Shown here: in pieces, positions 28,976-33,731 of the stretch
Layout of the letters: every line of letters starts with the position of its first letter
Numbering within the stretch: the stretch's first letter is position 1
Source of the DNA: Halorientalis sp. IM1011
GTDB taxonomy: Archaea; Halobacteriota; Halobacteria; Halobacteriales; Haloarculaceae
Length of the DNA: 64,000 nt
Reading direction: 5' to 3'
Assembly (NCBI RefSeq): GCF_001989615.1
Contig: NZ_CP019067.1
Span: 2,480,001-2,544,000 of the forward strand
Position numbers and translations under genes: made by a program
The notes under the pieces: generated by a model
The model's database searches: none
What the model was told of the DNA's origin: nothing
Seen by the model: the letters and a program-made list of their open reading frames with translations, nothing else

Positions 28976-29824
28976 TCAGTCCCGCCAGACGGCGAGGACA
29001 CGCACGCGCTCGCGGACCGACCCGTCGTGCTGGTCCGTGAACGCCCGGATTCGTTCGGCGGCGGTGACCGAGAACACGGCCAGCACGGTGCCGGCGACCA
29101 CGTCGGTCGCCCAGTGGATCCCCAGGTACATCGTCGAGATGGCGACGCTGGCGGCGCCGAAGACGGCGACGGGGAACCAGTAGGGGTAGGCGTCGCGGGT
29201 CCGGTACGCCATCAGCGCGACGGTCACCGACAGAGAGGTGTGCAACGAGGGGAAGACGTTGGTGTTGCGGTTGATCTCGCTGGTCAGCAACTGCGAGCGG
29301 GGCCAGTGGTGGTACAACAGCGGGTCGACCACGTCGGGCATGAAGTTGCGCGGGCCGTAGGCGATGAACGCGAGGTAACAGATCAGCCCGATCCCGTAGT
29401 TGAGGATGTACGCGATGGTCATCTCCCGCATCGGCCGCTGGTCGTCGAGCGTGAAGTACGCCACTAGCGGGAAGATCATCAGGAAGGCGTAGCCGTAGAC
29501 GTACACGTTCGAGAAGTAGGCTGTCAGAACCGGCGAGGCGATCGACTGGATCTGCGCGACGAGCTCGCCCTCGATGGCGTAGATCCGGTAGGTGATCTGG
29601 ACGCCGACCAGTTGCGAGAGGTCGCCGCTCACGTCCCGGATGAGGCTGTTCACCAGCAAAACGGCGGCCAGGACGGCCACGGCCGGTCCGGCCTCACGGA
29701 TACGTTCCCGGACGTTCTCGCGTGTCGCCCGGAGTCGGGCCGGCCCGACGAGGACCAGCGAGGCGACGACGAGCATCGCCCCGACGACCCCGAGCACTCG
29801 CGCGGAGAGTTCCAGCAGGCTCAC
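28976..29824 (-). CDS. PAP2-superfamily membrane phosphatase
   Basis: About 282 residues with six or more TM helices. The PAP2 active-site motifs FPSLHTS and GIHWATD are present with their histidines; the first KxxxxxxRP motif is not obvious, as in the inositol-phosphorylceramide-synthase-like branch. It likely removes phosphate from a lipid phosphate at the membrane surface. GTG 29824 (VSLLELSARV) is chosen because it follows the preceding gene's stop by four bases; a GTG at 29851 would overlap that gene by 23 bases. Confidence 0.85.
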   Translation of the reverse strand: MSLLELSARVLGVVGAMLVVASLVLVGPARLRATRENVRERIREAGPAVAVLAAVLLVNSLIRDVSGDLSQLVGVQITYRIYAIEGELVAQIQSIASPVLTAYFSNVYVYGYAFLMIFPLVAYFTLDDQRPMREMTIAYILNYGIGLICYLAFIAYGPRNFMPDVVDPLLYHHWPRSQLLTSEINRNTNVFPSLHTSLSVTVALMAYRTRDAYPYWFPVAVFGAASVAISTMYLGIHWATDVVAGTVLAVFSVTAAERIRAFTDQHDGSVRERVRVLAVWRD

Positions 29825-29828
29825 GGTA

Positions 29829-31616
29829 TCACCGTCCGACGAGGTTGCCACCCTCGTAGCGGTAGCCCGCCTCGCCCCAGGCCCGTCGGGCGCGTTCGGA
29901 CTCTATCTGTCCGTCCGATCCGAGGAAGGGGAGCAGCGGATGGTCGCCGTCCCACTCGAGGTCCGACGGGACCCAGTCCGTCCCGGCGAGCGGGCTCGCC
30001 GCGGGCGTCGCGTACCCGTCGAACACCTCGTCCGCGAGGTGTCCCCGGTCGATCAACTGCCCCAGAACCCGTCGGAACTGGTAGTTGTGCAGCGGCGTCC
30101 GTCGCGTATTGTACCCCAGGACGTAGTAGGAGTTCGACGGGCTAGTCAGTAACTTGAGCTCGTCGGCCCCGACGATCTGTTCCGCGCTGTCGACGCCGAT
30201 CCCGTTGACCGCGGCGTCGATGGTCCCGTCGGCGGCCGAGGAGACGACGATCCCGTCGGACACGTCGGCACGGACGACCAGCCGATCGAAGGGGAGCCCG
30301 CCGGCCATCGACTCCGGGAACTCCCCGGCGTCGGTCCGGTGGAGGAAGTGCTCGTCGAACCGACCCAAGACGAGTTCGACGCCCGAGGGCTGTTCTTCGA
30401 AGGCCACCGGCCCGCTCCCGACCGCGGGGACGTTGTTCGTGACCAGCGCCTCCGTCACCTCCCCGCCCACGTCGACGCCGCCGAGGGTCGCCGGCCGGCG
30501 GCGCTGTTGCCAGACGTGTTCGGGCAGGACCGGCACTGTGAGTGCGCGCCGGGCGACCTGCTCGGAGCAGTCCCCGAACGTGAACTCGACGGTTCGGAGG
30601 TCCGTGGCCCGCACGCTCTCGACCAGACTGGCCTGTCCGTGATACCGCGGGACGGGGACGAACGAGTCGCTGTCCGGCGTCGACGTGTCTCTGACGAACT
30701 CGTAGGTGAAGGCCACGTCGTCGGCGGTCAGCGGTTCGCCGTCGTGCCAGCGCTGGTTGGGCCGCAACCGGACCGTCGCCTGGAGCTCCCCGTCGCGGCG
30801 CTCGAACGACCAGCGGTCGGCCAGCCACGGCTCGATCCGGTCGCCGTCGTAGGCCCGCCCCAGCGGGTCGTACAGCAGGTTCGTCAGGATCGTGTTGTCG
30901 CGGTAGCGCACCGCCAGCGGATTGAGGTTCTGGATCTCCTGCCCGTAGGTCGTCCCGATCCGGAGGGTGCGAGGACTGGATTCGGCCTCGGGCGTCGCTT
31001 CCAGCGCCAGATACCCCATCGGCGAATCCAGATCCGCCCGCTCCCAGCCGGTGAACCTGTCGGTCCGAACCGCCCGGATCGTCTCCGGGAACCCGAGGAT
31101 GCTGAACGGCTGGGAGCGCGCGATCGTTCGCTGGAGCGTCGTCACCGCGTCCCGTCGTTCCTGTCCCGTCACGCGTCGCTGCCGCTGAAGCAGGTCGTCG
31201 ACCCGTGCGTTCGAGTAGCCGAAGGGGTTGCGCCAGCCCGGGGACTGCGCGCCCGTCGAGTGCAATAGCGAGTACAGGGCGTCGGGCTCCCGAGGCACAT
31301 CCGGCATCCGTCCGACGAACAGGTCGAACTGGTGGTTGACGAGGATCTGCCGGCGGAGTTCGTCCTCGGCTGTCGGGACGACCCGGGCGTCTACCCCCGC
31401 CGTCTGGAACCACTCCCCGACTGCCCGCGCCAGCCGAAGGGCGTACGGATCCGTATCCGCCGGGAGTGTCTTGATTCGGAGCGTCGTCTGGCCGCTGGCC
31501 CGCCAGCCCAGAAGCGACTGGAGGCGGTCGAGACAGCCGGCGCTCGCGCCGGCCACGCCCGTCGCGCCGCCGGCGAGGAGTTGCCGCCTGGTCACGCCAT
31601 CTCTGCCGGACGACAT
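29829..31616 (-). CDS. Tat-exported lipoprotein, SBP_bac_5-type binding protein with permuted halves
   Basis: 595 residues. A twin-arginine signal (TRRQLLAGG, Arg10-Arg11) and lipobox AGC (Cys28) mark a membrane-anchored lipoprotein. The fold is that of oligopeptide/dipeptide-binding proteins, but the order is swapped. Residues about 44-207 match the part that normally ends the family (TLRIKTLPADTDPYALRLA...GVDARVV...FDLFVGRM...GYSNARVDDLLQ). Residues 217 onward match its normal beginning (TLRIGTTYGQEIQNLNPLAV...IEPWLADRW...QRWHDGEPLTADDVAFTYEF). The protein then ends at ARRAWGEAGYRYEGG, where the C-lobe would usually continue. No permease or ATPase gene is near, so it may work alone or with a distant transporter. 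Confidence 0.88.
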   Translation of the reverse strand: MSSGRDGVTRRQLLAGGATGVAGASAGCLDRLQSLLGWRASGQTTLRIKTLPADTDPYALRLARAVGEWFQTAGVDARVVPTAEDELRRQILVNHQFDLFVGRMPDVPREPDALYSLLHSTGAQSPGWRNPFGYSNARVDDLLQRQRRVTGQERRDAVTTLQRTIARSQPFSILGFPETIRAVRTDRFTGWERADLDSPMGYLALEATPEAESSPRTLRIGTTYGQEIQNLNPLAVRYRDNTILTNLLYDPLGRAYDGDRIEPWLADRWSFERRDGELQATVRLRPNQRWHDGEPLTADDVAFTYEFVRDTSTPDSDSFVPVPRYHGQASLVESVRATDLRTVEFTFGDCSEQVARRALTVPVLPEHVWQQRRRPATLGGVDVGGEVTEALVTNNVPAVGSGPVAFEEQPSGVELVLGRFDEHFLHRTDAGEFPESMAGGLPFDRLVVRADVSDGIVVSSAADGTIDAAVNGIGVDSAEQIVGADELKLLTSPSNSYYVLGYNTRRTPLHNYQFRRVLGQLIDRGHLADEVFDGYATPAASPLAGTDWVPSDLEWDGDHPLLPFLGSDGQIESERARRAWGEAGYRYEGGNLVGR

Positions 31617-32274: not shown

Positions 32275-32808
32275 TCAGGCGGCCGTGTCGTGTTCGGACT
32301 CGAACTCGCGTTGCTCGCGGTAGATCTCGACGAACTCGCTCACGTCGAACTGGAGCATCTGTTCTTCGAACTCGGACATGGCGTCGTCGTCGCCGGCGTG
32401 GCTCATCGCGTGTTCCATCAACTCGACGAGCAACTCGACGACGACTTCGTGGAGTTCCCGCGAGTCGAAGTCGGTGACCCAGACGGCGCTGTAGCCCACG
32501 TCACCGTCGTCGGAGAGGTCGGCGCTCTCGACCCGACCGGGGAACTCCTCGATCACCATCCCCATCAGGTGGGCGGTGGTGAACTCGTCGAACTCGTCAG
32601 CGGGTTCGACCGTGGCGCGCAACACGTCCGCCAGCGACTCCGGGACGAACCGTCCCAGCGGGTGGACGTCCATCACGACTCCGTGTGCGTCGCCGCAGTC
32701 ACAGTCGAACTCCCGGACGCCCAGGTCGAGTTCCCGGGGGCTGAGCGTCTGGCCACAGGCCAACTCCAGGTCGTCGTCCTCGCCGCCCGGCACGCGCGGT
32801 TCTGCCAT
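32275..32808 (-). CDS. Haloarchaeal DUF5815-like protein
   Basis: A 177-residue acidic soluble protein. A C-D-C-G-D-A-H zinc-ribbon-like start (REFDCDCGDAHGVVMDVHPLGRFVPESLADVL) is followed by helical regions around FTTAHLMGMVIEEFPGRV and VVVELLVELMEHAMSHAGD. I associate this pattern with the uncharacterised haloarchaeal family DUF5815, from memory. The function is unknown. ATG 32808 is the natural start. Confidence 0.75.
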   Translation of the reverse strand: MAEPRVPGGEDDDLELACGQTLSPRELDLGVREFDCDCGDAHGVVMDVHPLGRFVPESLADVLRATVEPADEFDEFTTAHLMGMVIEEFPGRVESADLSDDGDVGYSAVWVTDFDSRELHEVVVELLVELMEHAMSHAGDDDAMSEFEEQMLQFDVSEFVEIYREQREFESEHDTAA

Positions 32809-32861: not shown

Positions 32862-33731
32862 TCAGTACCCGTCGCTCCGGCTCTCCGAGGTCTCCCAGTC
32901 GCCGTCGACACCCGTTCCGTCGCCTCCAGCCCCGTCGACGCCCGTCCCGGCATCGCCCGTCGGGCGGAGTTGCTGGTAGGCCCGCGTGGTCACCGCGATG
33001 CCGAACACGCCCACGACTGCGCCGATCACGGCGTTGACCAGTGTGCTCACCGTCCGACCGAGGAGTCCGGCGACCAGCCCGCCCAGGCCGCCGACAACCA
33101 TGCCGAGGACGGCGAGGATGAGCACGAGTGCGAACAGGTACCAGCGGTTCCCCTTCGCGACGTCCCAGCTCCGGCCGAGCGCCCCGATCGCGTTCTCGTC
33201 GTCCAGCGCCACCGCCTGCCGGACGAACACCAGCGAGACCACGAGGAACGCCCCCAGGACGAACCCGCCGATGATGAGGCCGATCAGCCCGACGACGAAC
33301 CCGACGGTGACGATCACGAACGTGACGATGCCAGCGAGGAACCCGTTCACGGTCGCCAGCGGCAGGCCGTCGGCGACTCCGTCGGGCAGCCGCTCCGGAT
33401 CGGCGGCAGCGAACACCCGAACCGCGACGATGCCGACCGCCTCGGCCACGAACGCCAGTGCCACGAACGCCACGGCCAGCAGCGTGGGCGAGAGCCCCAC
33501 TGCGAACGGCGACATGCCGACCTGGCTCCGGAACTCGTCCAGCGAGCCCGCTTCGGCCAGCTCCTGTCCGTACTCCTCGATCACGAACTCGGCCGCGAGC
33601 TCAGTCAGTGACTGTGCGACGACGACGTTGGCCACCCCGAGTACGAGGAACGCACCGACGAGATACGCGCCGGGTCGCGTGAGCAACCGGTCGAGACCGT
33701 CGCTGAGGGCCCGCTCGATGTCGAGGGACAT
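32862..33731 (-). CDS. Polytopic membrane protein, glycerophosphoryl-diesterase-membrane-domain-like
   Basis: A 289-residue protein with about six TM segments separated by short loops (AYLVGAFLVLGVANVVVA; LLAVAFVALAFVAEAVGIVAV; VNGFLAGIVTFVIVTVGFVVGLIGLIIGGFVLGAFLVVSLVFV; WYLFALVLILAVLGMVVGGLGGLVAGL; LVNAVIGAVVGVFGIAV). A conserved-looking QAVALDDENAIGALGRSW loop is typical of YciC/DUF7544-like membrane domains. The Gly/acid-rich C-tail is likely cytoplasmic. No catalytic motif is seen. Confidence 0.78.
   Translation of the reverse strand: MSLDIERALSDGLDRLLTRPGAYLVGAFLVLGVANVVVAQSLTELAAEFVIEEYGQELAEAGSLDEFRSQVGMSPFAVGLSPTLLAVAFVALAFVAEAVGIVAVRVFAAADPERLPDGVADGLPLATVNGFLAGIVTFVIVTVGFVVGLIGLIIGGFVLGAFLVVSLVFVRQAVALDDENAIGALGRSWDVAKGNRWYLFALVLILAVLGMVVGGLGGLVAGLLGRTVSTLVNAVIGAVVGVFGIAVTTRAYQQLRPTGDAGTGVDGAGGDGTGVDGDWETSESRSDGY

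Follow-up and report, generated by a model that had tools for sequence, protein, structure and literature searches.

A circularly permuted cluster C substrate-binding lipoprotein with a conserved PAP2 partner: a plausible new system in haloarchaea

Background and comparison with described systems

The closest precedent for the permutation described here is Tp0684/MglB-2 of Treponema pallidum, which together with its relatives (termed 'Type Ic / Cluster Bc') represents naturally circularly permuted, tethered binding proteins (PMC4990184). TpMglB-2 has a cluster B fold, binds glucose and is still viewed as the binding protein of an ABC importer (PMC4990184). The mycobacterial lipoprotein LpqW has been reported to participate in phosphatidylinositol mannoside/lipomannan synthesis and not in import (PMC3229680; PMC12421883). 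By analogy, LpqW can be taken as a precedent for a protein of this type serving lipoglycan synthesis rather than import.

The window analysed here is a stretch of 64,000 nucleotides from Halorientalis sp. IM1011 (contig NZ_CP019067.1, positions 2,480,001 to 2,544,000), and it encodes a substrate-binding protein (SBP) whose two sequence pieces both match cluster C SBPs such as AppA (1xoc), DppA (1dpp), NikZ (4oet) and CtaP (5isu). The resemblance extends in part to the predicted fold and, by motif, to the nature of an extracytoplasmic lipoprotein; unlike those proteins, the window's SBP has its pieces swapped, a conserved PAP2 partner and no importer genes. Like TpMglB-2, it is a tethered binding protein with a naturally occurring, circularly permuted chain, a trait that it has in common with a family of relatives, whereas the chain is cut elsewhere than in the cluster B protein, and the sequence and fold matches go to cluster C. 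Regarding LpqW (2grv), a profile of front segments from the permuted family matched residues 408-466 (E 6e-5), and LpqW is likewise a lipoprotein; however, the matched part of LpqW is placed as in the canonical order, and the partners differ. To our knowledge, LpqW has no known link to PAP2.

In the literature searched, in which subscription journals were thinly covered, neither a permuted cluster C SBP nor a haloarchaeal SBP-PAP2 system was found, and no solved chain with permuted order was present among the best 60 matches of each of two PDB searches. The protein family thus seems to represent a natural circular permutation, hitherto undescribed, within cluster C, a large class of binding proteins, and it is conserved in two domains of life; this conservation allows the effects of lobe order and anchor position on such proteins to be examined. 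The haloarchaeal branch would in addition be a clear-cut example of a binding protein that exchanged transport for work with a membrane enzyme and is inherited together with two partners, and a new haloarchaeal system built around the permuted SBP is plausible.

Gene structure and order of the sequence segments

The SBP gene is located on the minus strand at 29829..31616, with an ATG at 31616 and a stop codon at 29829-29831, and its translation of 595 aa was assigned to SBP_bac_5 (cluster C) on the basis of Pfam and an AlphaFold model. The N-terminus (residues 1-28; 31533..31616, minus strand) contains the Tat-type motif TRRQLLAG and the lipobox SAGC28, in which R10, R11, G27 and C28 were invariant among 37 permuted proteins; by motif, the protein is a predicted exported, membrane-tethered lipoprotein. 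The lipid-bearing Cys28 is connected to the first strand by a short tether (residues 28-44; 31485..31535, minus strand), measuring 14-17 residues in 41 PAP2-linked members as compared with 11-90 in the haloarchaeal transporter-linked permuted proteins. The tether is followed on the same strand by segment B, which corresponds to the old C-terminal third now placed at the front (residues 45-207; 30996..31484), by a linker between the former C- and N-termini (residues 208-216; 30969..30995, modelled at a pLDDT of about 86), and finally by segment A, the old N-terminal two thirds (residues 217-595; 29832..30968), both segments being delimited by Pfam and PDB profile matches.

When searched against the Pfam SBP_bac_5 profile (368 positions), the protein scored 129.6 bits in total, with residues 261-588 aligned to positions 2-281. 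The N-terminal 215 residues alone aligned to positions 281-366, a weak match below the Pfam cut-off (14.5 bits, E 0.02), and no other family was found for them at E<10 in the Pfam search. A profile built from 21 homologous front segments, 18 of which themselves match SBP_bac_5 in Pfam, identified about 50 cluster C chains in the PDB, nearly always in the C-terminal third. The best of these was AppA (residues 371-497, E 5.8e-14), with DppA (357-487, E 3e-10), OppA and NikZ ranking below it, and this search gave no significant match outside cluster C-type binding proteins. Segment A, in turn, matched residues ~30-350 of solved cluster C SBPs. Likewise, when the permuted family was used as a full-length profile, both pieces aligned to one and the same canonical chain, in swapped order; in 5isu, for example, family residues 227-550 aligned to 31-319 and family residues 59-192 to 353-483. 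In a split-profile assay with separate profiles for the N-part (A) and the C-part (B), canonical controls read A-then-B and the permuted family B-then-A. Every permuted protein that was run against Pfam had its breakpoint at position 281-286. The window's SBP is homologous to both parts of the family profile but lacks their canonical order, and the protein is accordingly classified, from its sequence, as a permuted variant of SBP_bac_5/cluster C outside the standard membership.

These analyses bear out the preliminary description of the locus, in which residues 44-207 had been assigned to the C-terminal third of the family, the usual N-terminal start had been placed only at residue 217, and a circular permutation had been proposed. 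The same description had named two outcomes that would speak against this proposal, namely unrelated domains or a front part that fits better in another family, and neither was observed. The weak match of the single front sequence is the one point in favour of a reading without permutation, in which the protein would consist of unrelated domains or a fusion, or result from an error in assembly or annotation; set against the profile match to the C-terminal third of AppA, the swapped order in many independent genomes and the single confident fold described below, such an origin is extremely improbable. Most haloarchaeal relatives possess full-length homologues with the same order, at 37-83% identity, which excludes an assembly artefact and chance. 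The preliminary description had also suggested that the permutation may have arisen by duplicating the domain and losing its outer parts; none of the loci examined contained a fused double copy that could represent such an intermediate.

Predicted fold

The AlphaFold2 model of the SBP, built with 40 permuted homologues, was a single confident globular protein (mean pLDDT 86.3, pTM 0.84), and pLDDT fell below 50 only at residues 1-40 and 379-383. Foldseek matched the model to the cluster C proteins NikZ, AppA, AccA and DppA with a best E of 1.1e-14. Coverage was partial, which is what a sequential aligner should give for a permuted chain. Going by the known structures of OppA and DppA, the cut falls within lobe II, from which we infer a permuted topology in which lobe I would be continuous, lobe II split, and the lipid anchor shifted from lobe I to lobe II.

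Distribution and origin of the permuted family

The distribution was established by a scan of named genomes combined with the split-profile assay, canonical relatives being sampled via patterns from the permuted family. Proteins with the B-then-A order were found in at least eight haloarchaeal genera, i.e., Halorientalis, Halovenus, Halorubrum, Natrinema, Natronolimnohabitans, Halobiforma, Halomarina and Halovivax. Among the matches listed, a second haloarchaeal group with this order comprised Halolamina, Natrarchaeobius, Halogeometricum and Halorubrum cibi, and the bacterial proteins came from Halomonas, Aliihoeflea, Pararhodobacter, Roseibium and Paracoccus, as well as from MAGs assigned to Desulfobacteraceae, Trueperaceae and Anaerolineae. 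Proteins with the permuted order and a shared breakpoint come from haloarchaea as well as from several bacterial phyla.

In the main tree, calculated with IQ-TREE from re-circularised sequences (69 rows) under the assumption that the root lies among the canonical proteins, one branch parted canonical from permuted proteins with support of 100/98. The PAP2-linked haloarchaeal clade was supported at 100/100 and the transporter-linked permuted group at 99/92; in a quick 84-row tree, the support for the canonical/permuted split was only 61. Since all permuted proteins fall on one side of one branch, the simplest reading of the tree is that a single ancient permutation event is likely. The age and breadth of the permutation, together with the identity of the neighbouring gene product as a PAP2 protein, go beyond what the preliminary description contained.

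The PAP2 partner

A gene on the same strand (28976..29851, minus) overlaps the SBP gene at its 3' end and encodes a predicted integral membrane phosphatase/phosphotransferase of 291 aa, with a Pfam PAP2_3 score of 64.2 bits against a cut-off of 27. Its catalytic residues R168, P201-S202-L203-H204, H246 and D250 were invariant in 56 copies, and with this motif intact the partner is a putative phosphatase or phosphotransferase. The partner resembles PAP2_3 enzymes such as inositol phosphorylceramide synthase/Aur1, bacterial PAP2 phosphatases and LpxE in its Pfam assignment, motif residues and fold, its model (pLDDT 87.8) being closest in Foldseek to inositol phosphorylceramide synthase/Aur1 and a B. 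subtilis PAP2 phosphatase; it differs from them in that its subfamily is separate, haloarchaeal and coupled to a lipoprotein of the binding type, and the best Foldseek E is only a modest 1.6e-3.

In nearly all members of the clade, the PAP2 gene lies directly downstream of the SBP gene, in many unrelated neighbourhoods, with a spacing that ranges from an overlap of a few bases to about 100 bases. In two genomes (G056 and G059) PAP2 is present, yet situated away from the SBP gene. In Natrinema (loci L078, L082, L083, L084, L086 and L088), one PAP2 gene is flanked by two permuted SBP genes, an SBP-PAP2-SBP arrangement that suggests a duplication inside the system.

Co-occurrence of SBP, PAP2 and c3

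Co-occurrence was assessed in two samples. In the first, composed of 60 related genomes in which the SBP was called at E<=1e-64 and the PAP2 subfamily at E<1e-50, PAP2 was present in 34/35 SBP-positive genomes vs 0/25 SBP-negative ones; the sole SBP-positive genome without it, G049, has a completeness of 76% and a contig that stops inside the SBP gene. In the second sample (295 genomes of the phylum, sharing 10 SBP-positive genomes with the first), PAP2 was found in all 31 SBP-positive genomes vs 1 of the 264 SBP-negative genomes, the latter being a weak match. Inside the genera g1, g6, g10 and g44, SBP and PAP2 were present or absent together. Fisher p-values for these counts overstate the significance because the genomes are related and not independent. 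Gene order and co-occurrence together reveal a functional link between SBP and PAP2, whatever its mechanism.

A second gene family, c3, shows the same pattern. It encodes a membrane protein, mostly of 365-480 residues, with the motif LWPYTSR..GRTLAIN, and it is located upstream of the SBP gene, often immediately so, in about nine loci (e.g., L033:7192-8454 and L048:6877-8139), while in the genome of the window it is encoded outside the window, at C1:1458311-1459780. It was detected in 32/35 SBP-positive genomes of the first sample and 30/31 of the second, and in none of the SBP-negative genomes of either sample; c3 probably belongs to the same system as the SBP and PAP2. There was no significant Pfam or NCBIfam match for c3. 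Its sole PDB match, 2p0v (E 0.0013), was too weak to be used for identification, and Pfam gave no confirmation of a suspected resemblance to LssY_C.

These partners are also relevant to a possible sensory role. In Halobacterium, BasB and CosB are binding proteins that report their ligands to membrane transducers, and such pairing is known in haloarchaea. A membrane-tethered binding lipoprotein without a permease would suit that role; however, it is a PAP2 enzyme and c3 that are conserved as partners, and no transducer was recognised among the conserved neighbour clusters, which leaves a sensory protein of the BasB/CosB type a rather remote alternative.

Importer genes

The transporter-linked permuted SBPs, both bacterial and haloarchaeal, are encoded directly 5' of DppB, followed by DppC and DppD/F where the contig reaches. 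The bacterial permuted SBP_bac_5 loci (L094, L095, L097, L098, L099, L101, L105, L120 and L131) are, for the most part, situated beside DppB/C/D/F genes.

In the window's haloarchaeal clade, the neighbourhood survey found no ABC permease gene adjacent to the SBP gene, consistent with the earlier observation that no transporter genes adjoin it in the window. An orphan SBP could still be an importer component serving a Dpp/Opp-type ABC permease encoded elsewhere, given that the genes of all other permuted SBPs adjoin DppBC/DF genes wherever the flanking sequence is long enough and that many SBP-positive genomes contain DppB homologues at other positions. Against this, DppB was absent at E<=1e-15 from four genomes of the same genus that are 98-100% complete and possess both SBP and PAP2 (G001, G003, G004 and G006). 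In the genome of the window, the DppB match is located just downstream of a canonical SBP gene and is followed by a second permease gene, and across genomes the presence of the SBP was tracked by PAP2 and not by DppB. An importer role is therefore unlikely, although less so than a sensory one. The missing DppB, the permease linked to a canonical SBP and the short tether favour a task at the membrane surface together with PAP2, and the SBP of this clade probably serves something other than ordinary nutrient uptake.

Proposed role of the SBP-PAP2 pair

Our main reading, to which we assign a probability of roughly 0.65, is that a permuted cluster C SBP left the importer and became paired with a PAP2_3 enzyme as a substrate presenter or regulator. 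The sequence shows that the chain is cut in the loop that follows Pfam position ~285 and that the short linker now connects the former termini. Judging from the tree, this most likely happened once, in the binding protein of an ABC transporter, and was passed on to both haloarchaea and bacteria. Within one clade of haloarchaea, the protein would then have left the importer and entered a presumably physical partnership with the PAP2_3 membrane enzyme. The short tether would keep the lipoprotein near the outer face of the membrane, where its cleft may bind a solute or a lipid headgroup. Going by its family, the active site of the PAP2 partner would face outwards, and the bound ligand could be handed over to it by direct contact or be used to regulate it.

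In a more specific form, the SBP, the PAP2/Aur1-like enzyme and c3 would constitute a new haloarchaeal surface system that processes a phosphorylated lipid or solute, in which the SBP would present substrate to the enzyme instead of to an ABC importer; we consider this an evenly balanced proposition.

Other genes in the neighbourhood

Two further gene families were considered as partners, namely c19 (GT-C/PMT_2-like) and c20 (arylsulfotransferase-like), and both were dropped because they showed no genome-wide co-occurrence with the SBP. Genes of these families adjoin the SBP-PAP2 pair in some genomes (loci L039, L041, L042 and L046). Upstream of the SBP gene in the window, a DUF5815 protein is encoded at 32275-32808 (minus strand) and a membrane protein that matches GPDPase_memb weakly, below the cut-off, at 32862-33731 (minus strand), both of which are conserved in the same genus.
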